Positions 19,367-32,887 of a DNA stretch of 64,000 nt are shown piece after piece. Within the stretch, counting starts at the first letter, position 1, and each line of letters begins with the position of its first letter. The DNA lies in assembly GCF_010723305.1 (NCBI RefSeq), contig NZ_BLKW01000002.1, positions 1,302,001 to 1,366,000 on the forward strand. The letters run 5' to 3'. Under the pieces are notes generated by a model, which saw nothing but the letters and a program-made list of their open reading frames with translations, searched no databases and was not told the origin of the DNA. The position numbers and the translations under genes were made by a program. The DNA is from Mycobacterium botniense. GTDB taxonomy: Bacteria; Actinomycetota; Actinomycetes; Mycobacteriales; Mycobacteriaceae.

Positions 19367-19527
19367 CCCAGTCGCATCGGGTGCAGTGCTGTGCGGGGCC
19401 TGGTCATGGCGGTGACAGTTCGGCGTCCTTGGCGTCACCGCTGATATCGGCCCAGCTGGCTTCTGCTGTAGTGGCTGGATTTGGCTCCGAAAGCGCGGGA
19501 AAGGAAGATCGGCAGAGGAAGCGGATT

Positions 19528-19573
19528 GCCCCGGCAGAGCCTGGCCTGACGGGAGATCAGACGTTGCCGGGGC
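19528..19573. terminator. Inverted repeat downstream of the coiled-coil gene
   Basis: GCCCCGGCA at 19528-19536 and TGCCGGGGC at 19565-19573 pair exactly over nine bases with a 28-base loop. It lies about 30 bp after the stop of the minus-strand coiled-coil gene, within the 237-bp gap to omamB copy 1. It may end transcription from either side. Nothing else was seen in that gap. Confidence 0.4.
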
Positions 19574-19603
19574 TATCCGACAGCAGCTCAAGCCCTGCGC
19601 GCA

Positions 19604-20737
19604 CTAACAACCGCTGCTAAACGGAATGTTATTGCACAGGTTCACGACGGATGTTGTCAGAGTTGGCAGGAGGCCGTTCAGTACGTCGACGTTGCCGTTC
19701 AGGGTTCCGACGCCGTCCTCGAGGCCGGTGACGGTGTTGTCGAGGCCGGTGACGGTGTTGTCGAGGCTGGTGACGTTGCTGTTGAGCCCGGTGACGGTGT
19801 TGTCGAGGCCGGTGACGTTGCTGTTGAGCCCGGTGACGGTGTTGTCGAGGCTGGTGACGTTGCTGTTGAGCCCGGTGACGGTGTTGTCGAGGCCGGTGAC
19901 GGTGTTGTCGAGGCTGGTGACGTTGCTGTTGAGCCCGGTGACGGTGTTGTCGAGGCCGGTGACGGTGTTTTCGAGGCTGGTGACGTTGCTGTTGAGGCCG
20001 GTGACGGTGTTGTCGAGGCCGGTGACGTTGCTGTTGAGCCCGGTGACGGTGTTGTCGAGGCTGGTGACGTTGCTGTTGAGGCCGGTGACGGTGTTGTCGA
20101 GGCTGGTGACGTTGCTGTTGAGGCCGGTGACGGTGTTGTCGAGCCCGGTGACGTTGCCGTTGAGGGTTTCGACAGTGCTCTGGAGACCGGTGACTTCTCC
20201 GCCGAGCGTGACGACGTGCCCGTCCAACGTTGTGATGTTCGCGTCAAGGGCAGGCAAATCAGCGTTCAGCGTGGCGACGTTCTTATCCAAGGCGATGACG
20301 GTATTCCCGATATTGAGCAGACCGTAGACGTCGGAAACCAGCCCCCCGAGGTTACGTGCCAGCGGTGCGGTCAGCGTGTCGACAGGGCCGGGTAACGCGT
20401 TATCAAGCTCGAGGGCCAAGCTGCCGAGGGGGGTGGCCGCGGCACCGTCGGCGGTGAACGCGGCAGGGTCGACCGATCCCAGATAATCTGCAAACGGTCC
20501 GCCGAGGTTGGCGCCGTTCACCAGGTCAGCGCCCAGGAGGTTGCCGCCGATCACATCAGCCCACAACGCAGGGTCTAGGAGGAGATCGAGGATGTCGGCG
20601 TGGGCAGCGGGGGCGGTAGGCGCGGGAATCACGGCGGCGGCCAGCGCGGCACCGACCACCGGGCCCACAGCCGCGGCGCGAACTCCTTGGCGGCGGCGGG
20701 GCTTACAAGTACCACGGTTGCGTCGCTGAATGGCCAT
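19604..20737 (-). CDS. Secreted heptad-repeat coiled-coil protein
   Basis: I do not recognise this 377-residue protein. It has a very basic N-terminus, a hydrophobic core and AHA at 45-47, a good signal peptidase site. Residues 48-149 form a Leu/Gly/Ala-rich region without clear family. Residues 150-366 are 31 consecutive heptads with Leu at d and Val at a (types LDNTVTG and LNSNVTS), never broken. The last 11 residues hold two cysteines (LCNNIPFSSGC). The polar Thr/Asn surface and unbroken heptads recall stalks of trimeric adhesins, but no beta-roll head or anchor is seen. AGGAG precedes the start; a GTG at 20740 is an alternative. It lies between two Omam pairs on the opposite strand. Confidence 0.75.
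   Translation of the reverse strand: MAIQRRNRGTCKPRRRQGVRAAAVGPVVGAALAAAVIPAPTAPAAHADILDLLLDPALWADVIGGNLLGADLVNGANLGGPFADYLGSVDPAAFTADGAAATPLGSLALELDNALPGPVDTLTAPLARNLGGLVSDVYGLLNIGNTVIALDKNVATLNADLPALDANITTLDGHVVTLGGEVTGLQSTVETLNGNVTGLDNTVTGLNSNVTSLDNTVTGLNSNVTSLDNTVTGLNSNVTGLDNTVTGLNSNVTSLENTVTGLDNTVTGLNSNVTSLDNTVTGLDNTVTGLNSNVTSLDNTVTGLNSNVTGLDNTVTGLNSNVTSLDNTVTGLDNTVTGLEDGVGTLNGNVDVLNGLLPTLTTSVVNLCNNIPFSSGC
19724..20143. repeat. 21-bp tandem repeat array inside the coiled-coil gene, 20 units
   Basis: Twenty near-identical 21-bp units encode residues 199-338. Reading with the gene, 12 units encode L(D/E)NTVTG (type A) and 8 encode LNSNVT(S/G) (type B). The order is ABABABAB AABAAB ABAB AA. 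The AA doublets break strict alternation and point to unequal exchange or slippage. Because each unit is a whole heptad, gain or loss of units keeps frame and coiled-coil register. Confidence 0.9.
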
Positions 20738-20740
20738 CAC

Positions 20741-20994
20741 GGCATATCTCCTAATCGTGCGAGGTGGTGCAGGGACGGCCCTAGCGTAATTGCACTCACG
20801 TCAACCGATACGAATATGTAATAAAATCGATGCCGGATCGCTACCACAAAGTAATGATGGTGGTCGATAATGTCTAAACTTTTTACAAAGGGATTGACGC
20901 TGTTGATCGTCTCCGGAGATTCCCGCTCGCCCGCTCAATTTTGTGTCTGCCGAAAGCTGGCAGGTATCAGTGCAACATCCGATGATGTGGGGAA
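20741..20994. other. AT-rich divergent spacer between the coiled-coil gene and omamA copy 2
   Basis: The 254-bp spacer contains a stretch from about 20800 to 20890 that is far richer in A and T than the rest of the window, with runs such as AATAAAA and CTTTTTACAAA. It holds the AGGAG site of the coiled-coil gene and must contain promoters for both directions. A loose repeat ACCAC-N12-GTGGT lies near 20842-20864. No gene is evident in it. Confidence 0.5.
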
Positions 20995-21918
20995 GTGCTG
21001 TGCCGGATTGGCTGGTGGCTGTCCAGGGGAATTAAACGGGAGTTCTGGGACCTGACCGGTCGCAGCAATATGGCTGCAGCTGGGCGAACTCTACGGGCAA
21101 TCCAGCCCCGGAGGCGGGTTCCCACGTCGGCGGCCGGCCTGCTGATCGGGCCCGCGACCGCGGTGGCATGGTTAGTTGATACCCTCGTCGCCGTGACCGA
21201 AGGCAAACACGCCAAAAAAGAGCCGGGCGAGGTTCCTTCGGAGCCCGACGAGATCACCGCCGAACCGGCGAACGGTGCTGAGGCCGCGGCTACCGCGCTG
21301 CTGCGAGAAGAGGCCGCCGGCCCCGGTGCCGACGACCACGCGCCGCAGCCGACTGACGGTGGCGTCGTTTCGGCGCCCAAGCCGGGCAAAGTGTTCTCCG
21401 GCTACGGCATCGCGTCGGCCATTCTGGGGCTGGTCTCGGTGGCCGCGCTGGTGTTCAGCGCGATTACCTGGTCAATGCATCGCAGGGCCGACGAAGAGGG
21501 GCACTACCGCACCGAGGTCAAAAAGACCGCGGCCGAATGGGCCAGCCTGTTGCTCAACATCAACAAAGACAATGCCGAGCGCGTGCTGCATCGCTTGCGT
21601 GAGCAAACCACCGGCCCGCTCAACGCCGAGTTCGACCCCACGCTCATGCCGTTTCGAGACACATTGCTGAAGTTGCAGTCTCGCGGTGGGCGTGTCGAGG
21701 CGGTGGCCATCGTTTCGTTGCCTCAAAAACTCGACCTCGGGACGGCGCCAGCCGCTGCCGTATCCCGGGGAACCCGCACCGAGACCGTCCTGGTGCTCGC
21801 CACCTCGGGCGCTGTGAACAAGGAAGGCAAGCCGCAGCGCGTGTATTGGAATCTGCTGCTGAACGTGTCTGACGCGGCGGGCAAGTTCATGATCTCGGGG
21901 CTACAACCGATCCGATGA
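20995..21918 (+). CDS. OmamA-like membrane protein, copy 2, with N-terminal extension
   Basis: The 307-residue protein repeats the OmamA layout from about residue 130: FSGYGIASAILGLVSVAALV helix, then KKTAAEWASLLLNINKDN, ending LLLNVSDAAGKFMISGLQPI. It differs from copy 1 by an N-terminal extension of some 110 residues, with a second hydrophobic stretch (AAGLLIGPATAVAWLVDTLV) and an acidic Pro/Glu/Ala linker. The start is uncertain: a GTG at 20995 has GGGGAA just before it, and an ATG at 21070 would shorten the protein by 25 residues. It overlaps the next gene as ATGA, like copy 1. A paralogue of the Mce-associated accessory protein is the best call. Confidence 0.8.
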   Translation: MLCRIGWWLSRGIKREFWDLTGRSNMAAAGRTLRAIQPRRRVPTSAAGLLIGPATAVAWLVDTLVAVTEGKHAKKEPGEVPSEPDEITAEPANGAEAAATALLREEAAGPGADDHAPQPTDGGVVSAPKPGKVFSGYGIASAILGLVSVAALVFSAITWSMHRRADEEGHYRTEVKKTAAEWASLLLNINKDNAERVLHRLREQTTGPLNAEFDPTLMPFRDTLLKLQSRGGRVEAVAIVSLPQKLDLGTAPAAAVSRGTRTETVLVLATSGAVNKEGKPQRVYWNLLLNVSDAAGKFMISGLQPIR

Positions 21919-22640
21919 AAGGTATCCGCACTCTCGCGCCTTCGGCGGCAACTCTGCGCCGCTGGTGGCGGGTGCTGGCCTACGATATCGCCGCGCCGCT
22001 AGCCACCATCGCCGGGCTGGTGATGATCGGAATCGTGCTGCGCTGGCCACCGTGGTGGGTGTCGGCCTGCTCAACCCTGGTGGTGCTGATCATCGTGGGC
22101 GCAGTGGCCAACTTCGTGCAGGGTCGCGGGCCGGGGACGATCGGGACAAACGACCAGAGACCGTGGCTGCGGCTGGTCGTGGTCATCATCTGCACGACCG
22201 CGCTCCTGGCAGCGGTAATCCTCGGGTATTTCGGCTGGACGGTGCGCGACCGTGAGCTCGACCGCGACACCACCGAAGTGGTTCGGGTGGCCACTGCCGT
22301 GGCAGAGGCGATGGCGTCGTTTTCCCCGGTCGACCCGGCAGCGTCCCTCAAACGCGCTGAGGCCATGATGTTGCCAGAAAGTGCATCGGTGCTGAAAGAC
22401 CGCTACGAGAAATCCAAAGCCGCGCTGGCCCAAAACATGGTCACAGCCGAATCCCAGCTCGTCGCGGCTGGTGTTCTGGCGCTCAGGCCGCCAGCGGCCA
22501 CCGTGGTGGTGGTGATGCGGGGCACCCAGAGCAGGCCCGATGTGACGCCCATCCACACGGTGATCGCGCTGCGAATGAAGCTGGCGAAAAAGGGAGACCG
22601 CTGGCTCGTCGCCGACATATTGCCGGCGCATGTCCACTGA
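21915..22640 (+). CDS. OmamB-like membrane protein, copy 2
   Basis: The 241-residue protein has the layout of OmamB copy 1: a short cytoplasmic start, three membrane helices (about 22-45, 50-70, 84-108), then an exported domain whose landmarks recur in the same order. Examples are RDTTEVVRVATAVAEAMASF and the closing KLAKKGDRWLVADILPAH. Both members of the pair are therefore duplicated, including the ATGA overlap. It ends 47 bp from the convergent Rv0201c-like gene. Confidence 0.82.
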   Translation: MKGIRTLAPSAATLRRWWRVLAYDIAAPLATIAGLVMIGIVLRWPPWWVSACSTLVVLIIVGAVANFVQGRGPGTIGTNDQRPWLRLVVVIICTTALLAAVILGYFGWTVRDRELDRDTTEVVRVATAVAEAMASFSPVDPAASLKRAEAMMLPESASVLKDRYEKSKAALAQNMVTAESQLVAAGVLALRPPAATVVVVMRGTQSRPDVTPIHTVIALRMKLAKKGDRWLVADILPAHVH

Positions 22641-28459: not shown

Positions 28460-29599
28460 ATGCCGTCGACCCCTGACGACGATTCGGTCGAGCCGATTGT
28501 CCGTAAAACCGCGGCGTGGGCTTGGCGCTTGTTGGTCATCCTGGCCGCGGCGGTCGCGTTTTTCTGGCTAGCCAGGCGGCTCGCGATCGTCGTCGTTCCG
28601 GTACTGGTGGCGTTGATGTTGACGGCGTTGCTGGTGCCGGCGGTGGACTGGCTGAATCGCCGCGGCGCCCCTCGCGGTGGGGCGGTGGCGCTGGTCCTGC
28701 TTACCGGCATGGCGATCGTAGGTGGCATCCTCGCGTTCGTCATCAGCCAGTTCGTCATCGGGTTGCCCGGGCTGGTCGAACAAGTAACGCGCAGCATCGA
28801 TTCCGTCCGCAAATGGCTGATCGAAGGACCGCTGCATCTGAGTCGCGCGCAGATCGACAACGCCGGGAATGCGGCCATCCAAGCACTGCGCAACAACCAA
28901 GAGAAGTTGACCAGCGGCGCGGTGTCCACGGCGGCCACCGTGACCGAGGTTGTCACGGGCGCGTTGATGATGCTGTTCACGCTGATCTTCTTTCTCTACG
29001 GGGGGCGCAACATCTGGCACTACGTGACCAAAATCTTCCCGGTGCGCGTGCGGGATCGGGTACGCGCTGCCGGCAGCGCTGGATTCAGGTCGCTGATCGG
29101 CTATGTGCGGGCAACATTTTTGGTGGCGCTGGTGGACGCTGCGGGGGTGGGCACTGGGCTGGCGATCATGGGGGTGCCGTTGGCGCTGCCGCTGGCCTCG
29201 CTGGTGTTTCTGGGAGCTTTTATTCCGCTAGTCGGTGCTGTGATCAGCGGCTTTCTGGCTGTAGTGGTCGCGCTGTTGGCTAAAGGGTTTATCTATGCGC
29301 TGATCACTTTGGGCGTGCTCATCGGAGTGAACCAACTTGAGGCACATATTTTGCAGCCGCTCGTGATGGGCCGTGCGGTGTCGATCCATCCGCTGGCTGT
29401 GGTACTCGCCATCTCGACGGGCGGGGTGCTGGCCGGGGTTGTCGGAGCGTTGCTGGCTGTTCCGACGGTAGCGTTTCTCAACAACGCATTTCGGGTTTTG
29501 ACGGCGTCGCAGCCGTCCACTGAACCGCTCACTCACGACGGTGAGGGTTCAGCCATCATGCAGGCGGAGCCGGACAGCCTGGAGGACCGCTCCGAGTAG
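28460..29599 (+). CDS. AI-2E family membrane protein (Rv0205-like)
   Basis: The 379-residue protein belongs to the AI-2E transporter (PerM/TqsA) family: paired helices near the N-terminus, a long amphipathic cytoplasmic or periplasmic region (about 105-165), then five to six helices. [20 protein letters not shown] and the C-terminal [20 protein letters not shown] are the family signatures. Members export small molecules or act in Na+/H+ exchange; a mycobacterial PerM homologue supports cell division. The last residues (LEDRSE) and the stop are encoded by the first unit of a 53-bp tandem repeat, so the C-terminal end was shaped by that repeat. Confidence 0.85.
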
Positions 29600-29792
29600 C
29601 GGGCTGCGAGGAGCTGGTCCGACTATTGGGGTCAGAGGACCGCTCCGAGTAGCGGGCTGCGAGGAGCTGGTCCGACTATTGGGGTCAGAGGACCGCTCCG
29701 AGTAGCGGGCTGCGAGGAGCTGGTCCGACTATTGGGGTCAGGGGACCGCTCCGAGTAGCGGGCTGCGAAAAACTGGGTCTACTGGGATTTCA
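29582..29792. repeat. 53-bp tandem repeat: three identical hairpin units and one decayed unit
   Basis: Units start at 29582, 29635 and 29688 and are identical over 53 bp. A fourth at 29741 is 52 bp and diverged in its second half. The first unit contains the stop codon of the AI-2E gene. Within each unit GGACCGCTCC can pair with GGAGC-T-GGTCC (29584-29593 with 29610-29620 in unit 1), giving a 10-bp stem with one bulge and a 16-base loop. Unit length and overlap with a stop codon recall MIRU elements of mycobacteria. The units probably also act as serial terminators between convergent genes. Confidence 0.88.
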
Positions 29793-29853
29793 GGGGACCG
29801 GTCAAGGCCCAAGGGATGGCACCGAGGAGCGCGGCGGCCCCAGGCGCGGCGTG

Positions 29854-29923
29854 CCGTTGGAAGCCGCAGCCTCATTCCAGTTGAGAAGCCGTTGGAAGCC
29901 GCAGCCTCATTCCAGTTGAGAAG
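29854..29923. repeat. 35-bp direct repeat, two copies, at the 3' side of mmpL3
   Basis: Two abutting 35-bp copies start at 29854 and 29889 (each CCGTTGGAAGCC... to ...GTTGAGAAG). Fragments of the unit end (GTTGA.AA, CAGTTGAGAAGG) continue to the mmpL3 stop at 29945. With the 53-bp array, they fill nearly all of the 345-bp gap between the two convergent genes; no gene is present there. Confidence 0.85.
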
Positions 29924-29944: not shown

Positions 29945-32887
29945 TTAGAAGCGGCCTTCGCGGCGCAGCAAATCTTGAGCACTGAGCCCGCCACCGCGGC
30001 GCGGACGGGTGTTGTCGGCGTTATCGCCGTGCTGTTCTCTGGTGTCGATTTTTTCGGTCGCCGCCTCGGCGTCATTGTCCTGGGGTGACGACACGGGAAG
30101 CGCCGTAGTGGAATCCTCGGCGTCGTTCTGCTCATGGCCTGAAAAGTGCTGCGGAACGGGTATTGCTCGGGTCTGACCGGCAGACGGCGGCGGTGGCGGT
30201 GCGCTCTCTTCCGGGTCGCGTGGGTCACCAGCGTGATCGCCGTGCTTGCGGTTGCCCCGCAGCTCGCTGAGCCAAGACTCGATTTCACGACCCTGCGGCG
30301 GTGCTGTGCGGGCTTTTCGGGGACGCTGAGTGGCCGGGGATGCTTTCATCGCGGCGCCCCCGGTGGAGAGGCGAGTCGTTGGCGGCTCCTCAGCCTCTCC
30401 CGCGCCGGCGGGCATCCGGGTCGTGCTCGCCGCTGACGGGGTGATTTGAGCTCTCTGCTCCGGTCGCTGCGCCGCGCGTGAACGCGGCGGCCCGCCGACG
30501 GCCGGGTGGGTGGGGTCGTGCGGCGGTCGCGGCGCGGTGGCGATCGGGCCGCGCATCGCGACTGGAGGCCGATCACCGCCATATCTGGCCACAGCGGGCC
30601 GCACTTTACGCTCGTCGGGCAGATGGATTTCGCCGAGCCCGATACGGTTCTGCAGCCGCTTCATCCAGCGCGGCGCCCACCAGCAGTCGTCACCGAGCAG
30701 CTTCATCACCGATGGCACCAGGAACATCCGCACCACGGTGGCGTCCAGCAGTAACGCCGCGATCAATCCGAACGCCAGGTATTTCATCATCACCAGATCG
30801 GAGAACACGAATGCGCCCGCGACTACGGCGAGGATCAGTGCAGCGGCGGTAATGATCCGCCCGGTGGTTGCCGTTCCGATGCGGATAGCCTCAGCGGTCG
30901 ACATGCCGCGTTCTCGCGCCTCGACCATGCGGGAGACCAAGAACACCTCGTAATCGGTGGCTAACCCGTACCCCACGGCGATGACCAGCCCGATCACCGG
31001 CGCCGTTAATGGGGTCGGAGTGAAATTCAGCCACCTGGAGAAGTGTCCCTCGACAAATATCCAGGTCAAGATGCCCAGTGTCGACCCCAGCGTCAGCGCG
31101 CTCATCACCGCGGCCTTGATCGGCAGCACCACCGATCCAAACGCCAGGAACATCAGCACGGTGGTGGTGCTGATCAGGATCACCAGCATCAAGGGCAGCT
31201 TTGCGAACAGCACGTGAATGCTGTCCTGCTCCAGCGCCGGGGTACCACCGACCCACACGGTAACTCCCTTGGGGGCGGTGATAGCGCGCAACTCGCTGAC
31301 CTTCCGAGCCGCGTCATTACGGTTGACCAGGCCGTTCTGGATGACCCGGACCGCCGGATTCTTCGACGCGCCCTGCGCATAGGGGCGCTCCTGCCACATC
31401 TGCGCCGGATCGTGGTTCGGGTCGGTGAATCCGCTGATCGCCATCGCCTGGTTGCGAATGTCGGCGATCTGCTGATCGGTGACAGGTCGATGGTTGTCGG
31501 TCTGGATCACCAGGGTCAGCGGCTCGGTGCGGTAGCCGGGAAAAAGCTTGTCAAATTCTTCTTGTGCCTGGCGCACCGGGTTGCTTGGTGGCAGATATTT
31601 TTCGCTGATACCTCCCAGCCGCAAATTGCCCAACGGGATAATCAGCAAAACCATAGCGATGATAATCGGGGCTGCGAACAGCACCGGTCGTTTCATCACC
31701 CGGTTGACCAGCTTGCCCCAAAATCCGGCCTCGACCTCTTCGCGCGTTTTAGTCCGTTGCAGCAGGTCGGCGAGCCAGCTCAAATAGGCGCGGGAAAATC
31801 TCCAGTTCGCCAGCAACGGTATTCGGAATAGTGTCCGTACCCCGAGCGCGTCGACATGGCGCCCAAGCAGCCCGAGACAGGCCGGCAACACGGTGATCGA
31901 CAGCACCGCCGACAACATGACCGACGCGATCATGGCGTAGGTCAGCGATCTCAGAAAGCCCTGCGGGAACAGCAGCAATCCGCTCGCGGAGGCGACGATG
32001 ATCACCGCCGAGAACGTCACGGTGCGTCCGGCCGTCATCACCGCACGACGCACCGCCGCCTCGGTGTCATAGCCCTCGGCGATCTCCTCACGGAAGCGGC
32101 TCACCACAAAAAGCCCGTAATCGATTGCCAGACCGAGGCCGATCAGCGTGACCACCGGCTGGGCGAAATAATGCACCGGGCCGAACACCGCGACGAGTCG
32201 CATAATCCCCAGCGCACCGGCGATGGACAGCCCGCCGACCATCACCGGCAGGCCGGCGGCGACCACCCCTCCGAACACGAAGAACAACACCACTGCCACC
32301 AGCGGCAACGCCAGGACTTCGGCTCGCCTCTGATCTTTGGCGATGGTGCCGGTCAACGCGTTGGCCACCGGCTCCAACCCGGCGAGTTTGACCGTGCCGC
32401 CGTCAAGCTTTTGCAGGTCGGGTGCGATGGCCTTGTAGTTGTTGAGAATGGTGTCGTCGTCGTCACCCCGAAGGGGAATGCTGACAAAGGTGTACTTCTT
32501 GTCCGGGGTCACCATGCCCTGAACAACGTGGCTCTTCGAGTCGGGCGCTCTGAGGTAACCGGCCCATCCGAGGACCTGTTTGGGGTGGTCGCGTTGAAAT
32601 TGGTTGAGTTCGGCCACGATCTTCTTCGACCACGCCGGGTCGGTGACCGTTTTACCGGCCGGAGCGTGGAAGATCGCCACGATGTGACCGGTGCGGTCCC
32701 GGCCGTAGACCTCGTCGGCGAGTTTTGACGCCTTCACTGACTGGCTGCTGTCGTCGTAAAAACCGCTCTGGGTCACATGCGAGCCCAGCGTCAACCCGAA
32801 GATGCCGCCGCCGAGGCATAGCGCCACCAGCACGCCGATTACGATGAATCGGTAGCGGTAGACAGTTCGACCCCACCAGGCGAACAC
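29945..32887 (-). CDS. mmpL3: Trehalose monomycolate flippase MmpL3
   Basis: The 980-residue essential transporter moves trehalose monomycolate across the inner membrane for outer-membrane synthesis and is the target of SQ109 and indolecarboxamides. Two RND halves are visible. The proton-relay pairs are Asp256-Tyr257 (GLAIDYGLF) and Asp645-Tyr646 (LATDYEVF), with numbering as in M. smegmatis. Each half has a periplasmic porter domain. The last 240 residues are a disordered cytoplasmic tail rich in Pro, Arg and Glu. The GTG at 32887 follows AAGGAG. The 3' end abuts repeat DNA that may have altered the tail. Confidence 0.96.
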   Translation of the reverse strand: MFAWWGRTVYRYRFIVIGVLVALCLGGGIFGLTLGSHVTQSGFYDDSSQSVKASKLADEVYGRDRTGHIVAIFHAPAGKTVTDPAWSKKIVAELNQFQRDHPKQVLGWAGYLRAPDSKSHVVQGMVTPDKKYTFVSIPLRGDDDDTILNNYKAIAPDLQKLDGGTVKLAGLEPVANALTGTIAKDQRRAEVLALPLVAVVLFFVFGGVVAAGLPVMVGGLSIAGALGIMRLVAVFGPVHYFAQPVVTLIGLGLAIDYGLFVVSRFREEIAEGYDTEAAVRRAVMTAGRTVTFSAVIIVASASGLLLFPQGFLRSLTYAMIASVMLSAVLSITVLPACLGLLGRHVDALGVRTLFRIPLLANWRFSRAYLSWLADLLQRTKTREEVEAGFWGKLVNRVMKRPVLFAAPIIIAMVLLIIPLGNLRLGGISEKYLPPSNPVRQAQEEFDKLFPGYRTEPLTLVIQTDNHRPVTDQQIADIRNQAMAISGFTDPNHDPAQMWQERPYAQGASKNPAVRVIQNGLVNRNDAARKVSELRAITAPKGVTVWVGGTPALEQDSIHVLFAKLPLMLVILISTTTVLMFLAFGSVVLPIKAAVMSALTLGSTLGILTWIFVEGHFSRWLNFTPTPLTAPVIGLVIAVGYGLATDYEVFLVSRMVEARERGMSTAEAIRIGTATTGRIITAAALILAVVAGAFVFSDLVMMKYLAFGLIAALLLDATVVRMFLVPSVMKLLGDDCWWAPRWMKRLQNRIGLGEIHLPDERKVRPAVARYGGDRPPVAMRGPIATAPRPPHDPTHPAVGGPPRSRAAQRPEQRAQITPSAASTTRMPAGAGEAEEPPTTRLSTGGAAMKASPATQRPRKARTAPPQGREIESWLSELRGNRKHGDHAGDPRDPEESAPPPPPSAGQTRAIPVPQHFSGHEQNDAEDSTTALPVSSPQDNDAEAATEKIDTREQHGDNADNTRPRRGGGLSAQDLLRREGRF

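Follow-up and report, generated by a model that had tools for sequence, protein, structure and literature searches.

We analysed the gene for an exported-looking heptad-repeat protein (the heptad protein) in a 64,000-nucleotide stretch of the Mycobacterium botniense genome (the window). Its coordinates, strand and frame had been given in an initial annotation, and all three proved correct when the sequence and the open frames were rechecked (Table 1).

Table 1. The heptad protein gene, its parts and the adjoining features (positions in the window).
Feature	Position	Strand	Basis or remark
CDS, exported-looking heptad-repeat protein, 377 aa	19604..20737	minus	open reading frame; own-genome match 3.9e-228
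Shine-Dalgarno-like AGGAGA	20747..20752	minus	9 nt ahead of ATG at 20737; direct sequence reading
Signal-peptide-like segment, residues 1-47	20597..20737	minus	sequence features; likeness to leaders of PGRS-array proteins
Linker or leader domain, residues 48-149	20291..20596	minus	without a Pfam family; short helices of low confidence; start of the long predicted helix at residue 123
Seven divergent heptads, residues 150-198	20144..20290	minus	sequence
20 near-identical core heptads, residues 199-338, 21-bp-unit tandem array	19724..20143	minus	sequence
Five divergent heptads, residues 339-373	19619..19723	minus	sequence
C-terminal residues 367-377 with Cys368 and Cys377, overlapping the last heptad	19607..19639	minus	sequence
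Inverted repeat, 22-nt, 82% complementary, between convergent genes; possible terminator	19522..19579		
Intergenic stretch common to the heptad protein gene and the divergent second OmamA-like gene	20741..20994		
Second, diverged Mce-associated (OmamA/OmamB-like) gene pair; extra segment together with the heptad protein gene	20995..22640	plus	

We compared this neighbourhood with the 12-kb loci of six relatives by tblastn. All six carry, in the same order, an M13 peptidase gene, one OmamA/OmamB-like pair, an Rv0201c-like gene and mmpL11; the names (zmp1-like for the M13 peptidase, Rv0201c-like and mmpL11) are those of M. tuberculosis, which we take to apply here by synteny. None of the six 12-kb loci contains a tblastn match to the heptad protein at E ≤ 1e-5 or a second pair. 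In the window, the heptad protein gene and a second OmamA/OmamB-like pair lie back to back within a gap of the relatives' gene order. The second pair is 46% and 54% identical to the first. When its OmamA-like protein was searched against 59 other genomes of the genus, exactly one match was found in 56, none in 3 and two in no genome, the genus relatives being 40-49% identical. A DNA search with the second pair reached E ≤ 1e-50 in 17 of 396 genomes (own included); outside its own genome, the best match (G101, 67% identity) is at the site of that genome's single pair. Elsewhere in the window, at 29582-29768 and 29853-29923, we noted two tandem arrays, the first of 3.5 copies of a 53-bp unit (99% match) and the second of two copies of a 35-bp unit, adjoining the 3' end of a minus-strand frame (29945-32887) that is presumably mmpL3-like, by synteny. 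A 119-base piece of the 53-bp array had no other match in the genome at E ≤ 0.001.

The protein begins with a signal-peptide-like segment, as judged by inspection of the sequence: residues 1-47 have an Arg-rich start, a hydrophobic stretch and an AHA/D site. The N-terminal part matches several larger open frames in the same genome (E 1.0e-6). With residues 1-149 as a tblastn query against 17 loci, with composition correction off, the 12 matches listed showed 29-42% identity over 65-171 alignment columns and ended between residues 65 and 147; the match to one locus, L017, reached E 4.5e-13. Most of the leader relatives that we translated, from the same genome and some relatives, have a comparable signal segment and, after it, Gly-Asn-rich PGRS arrays; one of them (L003) combines the leader and a PGRS-like array with a protease of the PecA type, which scored 239.5 bits where 150 are needed. 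Pfam gave no family for residues 1-166 at E ≤ 0.001, and a search with residues 1-165 against 5.8 billion proteins, with about 8000 candidates scored, returned nothing at E ≤ 0.01. As to PE domains, 12 were found in the genome in open frames of 99-320 aa, in a search that was also positive for an E. coli control; the long PGRS arrays that we translated from this genome sit on secretory-leader proteins.

From residue 150 the protein consists of 32 heptads (residues 150-373) in the register L(d)xxxV(a)xx, with no skip. The initial annotation had described 31 unbroken heptads (residues 150-366) and a separate 11-residue tail with two cysteines. The unbroken register stands and the cysteines are there, Cys368 and Cys377 being the only ones beyond Cys11 of the leader. 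The count, however, is 32 and the tail is not separate, since its first seven residues, LCNNIPF, fit the pattern as a last heptad; only four residues of the C-terminus (LCNNIPFSSGC) lie beyond it. Leu at d, also claimed, holds for all 32 heptads, whereas Val occupies a in 28 of the 32, with Leu and Ile in two each. As expected of a canonical coiled coil, 64 of 64 a and d positions are aliphatic.

The 20 central heptads, which the annotation had called almost identical, are indeed near-copies of one 21-bp unit. They read LDNTVTG (11 times), LNSNVTS (6), LNSNVTG (2) and LENTVTG (1), and their DNA varies at 6 of the 21 positions; Tandem Repeats Finder described the repeat DNA as 42- and 63-bp arrays. 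Because a 21-bp unit is exactly one heptad, copying keeps both frame and heptad phase automatically, so that the unbroken run of 20 counts only once and the central stretch is less remarkable than it first appears. The antisense strand of the repeat (window 19626-20327, plus) is an open frame of 233 aa as well, because the unit is a multiple of three.

We therefore excluded the core copies and counted only the 12 divergent heptads as independent. All 24 of their a and d positions are aliphatic; in 20,000 shuffles, each scored in the best of seven registers, the mean was 10.8 and the maximum 17, and none (0/20,000) equalled the observed value. The Leu at d is encoded in these 12 heptads by CTG (5), CTC (4), TTG (2) and CTT (1), as opposed to CTC in 20 of 20 core heptads. 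Varied codons for a constant residue fit selection acting on the protein better than slippage of the DNA by itself. The heptad pattern is thus real and is maintained at the protein level.

The composition of the heptads gives reason for caution. Over 217 residues there are 21 Asp/Glu and only 1 Lys/Arg, which leaves almost no possibility for e-g salt bridges, Thr and Ser make up 60 of the 217, and Gly accounts for 11%. Pro occurs at b in 3 of the 32 heptads and in none of the 20 core heptads, which also have no polar residue at a or d. The hydrophobic moment at 102.9 degrees per residue (a 3.5-residue period) was 0.313 for the core, 0.190 for the first flank and 0.256 for the second, which scored higher (0.286) at 100 degrees; the sharpness of the core value reflects the fact that its heptads are copies. 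Mean helix propensity was 0.605 for the core, against 0.635 for the aligned part of the beta-roll of the Lolium ice-binding protein (LpIBP), 0.471 for SlaB and 0.433 for gp26. Judged by sequence, the helix propensity of the core is poor, near that of the beta-roll and far from those of SlaB and gp26.

Structure prediction was a check on a beta fold or disorder, and its answer was divided. The best of five AlphaFold2 models (single sequence, monomer) is a continuous helix over residues 123-369, with 140 of 377 residues at pLDDT of at least 90, in favour of a helix. The other four are weak: the mean pLDDT values were 70.8 versus 42.4, 37.6, 36.6 and 35.7, so that only one model is confident. As a control we folded, also from its single sequence, P0007, a protein with PF21300 beta-roll repeats rich in Thr, Asn, Val and Gly. 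The prediction for it has beta-strands spaced seven residues apart, 113 of its 281 residues reach a pLDDT of at least 90, and two of five models are outstanding (65.5 and 63.2). Helix is, thus, not what AlphaFold2 gives by default for such a composition.

In a search of the PDB, the whole protein matched 27 sequences at E up to 1, including SlaB, gp26, the Lolium beta-roll 3ult and a trimeric adhesin fragment. With residues 1-198, in which all heptads are divergent, six weak matches were obtained at E up to 10: five are tail-needle entries, with E between 2.4e-4 and 0.51, and the sixth is SlaB (0.0075). One of the tail-needle entries, titled head completion protein, we take to be gp26; gp26 is a trimer. 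The tail-needle matches suggested a phage origin, which we set aside in view of the signal-peptide features, the conserved chromosomal neighbourhood and the ordinary GC content of the region. The matches in Pfam (best 25 of 71 families), PHROGs (25 of 62) and NCBIfam (25 of 30) we treated as generic heptad matches, and the divergent stretch alone gave weak Pfam matches, the best (E 0.0081) to a coiled-coil region. On these predictions a coiled coil appears well ahead of disorder and of a beta-roll; against it stand the poor helix propensity, the weakness of the PDB matches and the low confidence of four of the five models.

The reading that we consider probable is that of an exported structural protein, whose long helix self-assembles into a coiled-coil rod that acts as a spacer or stalk. 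A Sec-type leader would take the protein across the inner membrane, and residues ~123-369 are predicted to form one long helix. Judging from the a/d pattern, the helices of two or three chains would then assemble into a coiled coil of ~32-37 nm, with parallel chains as the likeliest arrangement. A core of Val at a and Leu at d does not decide between dimer and trimer. The annotation had proposed an exported helical rod of about 30 nm, and the prediction supports it, with 32 nm for 217 residues at 0.1485 nm each and 37 nm for the helix 123-369. The identical central heptads may set the length, as 21-bp units could be gained or lost without a break in frame or heptad phase. Identical, almost uncharged heptads could slip along each other; for this reason the chains would need to be held in register by the non-identical end heptads and perhaps by the two C-terminal cysteines. 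Its role would most likely be that of a spacer or stalk, within the mycobacterial envelope or at its surface, which is the weakest step of this scheme. If such a 32-nm rod with length-adjustable repeats exists, it would offer a simple test case for which structures can reach or span the mycobacterial envelope, and one for the folding, outside the cytoplasm, of near-uncharged heptads of poor helix propensity.

We looked for relatives of the protein at several levels. The whole protein, searched against 5.8 billion proteins with about 8000 candidates scored, gave nine matches that we judged to be repeat-driven; one is labelled Bryobacteraceae and others look similar by eye, and they include a YadA-anchored autotransporter (P0006) and the beta-roll-like P0007. 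Among 396 genomes of the genus (own included), the full protein was matched at E ≤ 1e-8 in two, its own and one other (G292) at 20% identity, although absence in this search is a weak statement because only four candidates were scored per genome. As far as can be seen from these searches, there is no convincing homologue in the 396 genomes, and the gene appears restricted to the source lineage. The heptad region alone found matches at E ≤ 0.001 in 96 of 198 genomes (own included), with up to 14 candidates scored per genome. We fetched 19 of these loci from other genomes and translated 17, which by appearance were 12 short coiled-coil proteins, three Mce-like proteins, one MmpL-like protein and one further repeat protein, L083 of genome G090. 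L083 matches the heptad region at 43% identity (E 3.5e-7) and is an exported-looking protein of 520 aa, built of 21- and 24-residue Leu/Thr/Val units, with only generic matches in Pfam. Searched in turn against the 198 genomes, it was matched at E ≤ 1e-6 in three: G090 itself, the genome of the window (by the heptad protein) and G153 (L104, 36% identity, E 1.2e-7).

The G090 protein (L083/L102) and L104 of G153 have common ends (MGKHS... and ...PIARFF...GWW), and their central repeats are unrelated, being Thr/Leu-rich in the G090 protein and Asp/Val-rich in L104. L083 and L104 would thus belong to a fast-evolving repetitive family, and fast-changing repetitive centres seem to recur in exported-looking mycobacterial proteins, with Erp as the known example (PMC2639381). 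The annotation had regarded proteins of this kind as foreign to mycobacteria. This holds in part: the different Thr-rich Leu/Val repeat protein of G090 (one of the 17 weakly matching loci) and Erp (PMC2639381) mean that such proteins are not wholly foreign.

O-mannosylation is a habit of mycobacteria. It is possible, if rather unlikely, that the repeat forms no defined coiled coil and stays largely without order, as an exported spacer, rich in Thr and Ser and perhaps O-mannosylated, that evolves by slippage and resembles the repetitive centre of Erp. The poor helix propensity, the Gly and Thr/Ser contents and the four weak AlphaFold models would all be expected of such a spacer, and the exported-looking proteins of G090 and G153 are precedents for common ends with different repeats between them, as is Erp, whose repeat number differs among species (PMC2639381). 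A disordered spacer, however, does not account for the strict aliphatic a and d positions that extend to the 12 divergent heptads with their varied Leu codons, nor for the confident helix of the best model.

The location of the gene suggests a more specific role for the rod, as a strut in the periplasm that belongs to an additional Mce accessory module, works with the second OmamA/OmamB-like pair and bridges the inner membrane and the outer layers. We consider this very unlikely. Besides the back-to-back arrangement, with both elements missing from the loci of all six relatives, and the single OmamA-like match (or none, in three genomes) of the 59 relatives, it can draw on the phenotype of the Rv0200/omamB mutant of M. 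tuberculosis, in which fatty acid import is reduced, and on the stabilization of Mce1 by OmamA (PMC6368401). The heptad region also matches the MCE family TIGR00996 (E 9.8e-8), and three of the 17 translated loci look Mce-like. The TIGR00996 match, however, is one of many generic coiled-coil ones and scores 31.5 bits where the curated NCBIfam score is 140.5; apart from it the neighbourhood is the sole link, and by eye the protein has no membrane anchor. A connection with lipid import is conceivable, on the basis of the neighbourhood alone. Just as improbable, in our estimate, is an extended version in which the rod is a tunable, envelope-spanning strut or ruler, gained with the second pair as one module, its length given by the count of identical 21-bp heptads and its ends locked by the unique heptads and the cysteines; it would give the bacterium one more bridge, adjustable in length, for lipid transport of the Mce type, or would keep the outer membrane at a fixed distance.

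We find it slightly harder still to believe that the repeat folds as a beta-roll or beta-solenoid, each turn taking up 14 residues, as in the Lolium ice-binding protein. LbR_Ice_bind (PF21300) ties, at E 1.6e-12, with the leading Pfam family, DUF1664 (whole protein, best 25 of 71 families at E up to 10), and 3ult matches residues 215-323 (E 1.1e-7); composition and helix propensity are similar to those of LpIBP, too. LbR_Ice_bind also passes its Pfam cut-off (47.7 versus 30 bits, whole protein), a score that does not discriminate because DUF1664, BLOC1_2, SlyX and others pass theirs. The beta-roll match was lost when divergent heptads were searched alone, both in Pfam and, with residues 1-198 at E up to 10, in the PDB, in part because such short queries lose power. 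Moreover, the aligned stretch of LpIBP lacks a Leu column that would correspond to the Leu in each heptad, and the best AlphaFold2 model of the heptad protein is helical in this region, a prediction without the two beta-strands per 14 residues of the Lolium type, whereas the P0007 control was predicted as beta.

That there is no real gene here, only a repeat array with frames left open by a 21-bp unit, is hardly credible: the opposite strand is open too, and the searches of 5.8 billion proteins, with about 8000 candidates scored in each, gave nothing beyond repeat-driven matches, but the frame has a Shine-Dalgarno sequence, signal-peptide features, a leader common to other secreted proteins, varied Leu codons in its divergent heptads and, for residues 1-149, a third-position GC (0.738) inside the range of nine neighbour genes (0.708-0.808).

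To our knowledge, few exported coiled-coil proteins of mycobacteria have been described. By title, our search of the literature on secreted or exported trimeric coiled coils of mycobacteria found no paper on such a protein. In a term search of a review of mycobacterial adhesion (PMC8875947), coiled coil came up once, for HBHA, and the words trimeric and autotransporter did not. Long exported coiled-coil stalks are, nevertheless, already known from other organisms, and it is for mycobacteria that the heptad protein looks unusual.

One likeness by sequence is to SlaB, the stalk of an archaeal S-layer. The best PDB match of the heptad protein is SlaB (8qox, E 4.8e-11), with Leu every seven residues in the aligned part, and the SlaB family NF040788 is the best among the NCBIfam families listed (E 1.1e-25), although at 90.4 bits it remains far below the curated score of 700, and its best stretch, residues 281-360, is inside the coil. 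SlaB is a trimeric stalk by tomography, with a coiled coil modelled by AlphaFold (PMC10903991). In contrast to SlaB, the heptad protein has no recognised beta-sandwich domains, and SlaB has the better helix propensity and only 3% Gly. Trimeric autotransporter adhesins of Gram-negative bacteria share the long, exported-looking heptad stalk: the solved adhesin fragment 7o23 matches residues 183-338 (E 1.2e-7), and P0006, a protein with the YadA-anchor family PF03895, is 31% identical (E 1.3e-5). The heptad protein differs from them in its lack of a recognised head domain and in the cell envelope it would serve. Nor does it end in the four-stranded beta-barrel (YadA) anchor: Pfam has nothing to match residues 339-377 at E up to 10, and the four residues beyond the last heptad leave no room for a C-terminal membrane anchor.

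Among mycobacterial proteins, HBHA is a dimeric adhesin with a coiled coil at residues 24-109 (PMC3293801). Its coil is short, 86 residues, and is followed by a Lys-rich heparin-binding tail; the heptad protein, with 1 Lys/Arg per 217 residues, has no such Lys-rich repeats at its C-terminus, LCNNIPFSSGC. Erp is a protein of the cell wall and supernatant with a signal sequence and a repetitive centre whose copy number differs among species (PMC2639381). The heptad protein resembles it in having a signal-like segment and a repetitive centre. The repeats of Erp, however, are Pro-containing pentapeptides (PGLTS), and no repeats of this type were found in the heptad protein, where the unit has seven residues and the 20 core heptads lack Pro; Erp is also conserved at its ends and has orthologues in other mycobacteria; for the heptad protein we found neither.

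The last comparison is with the secreted PGRS-array proteins. These resemble the heptad protein in their Arg-rich signal segment and in the beginning of the mature part, and those translated differ in mostly carrying a Gly-Asn-rich PGRS array where the heptad protein carries its heptads. The heptad protein seems, by its sequence, to couple the export segment of these secreted proteins to another cargo. A PGRS-type leader on another kind of repeat could mean that the leader serves as an export module of general use.
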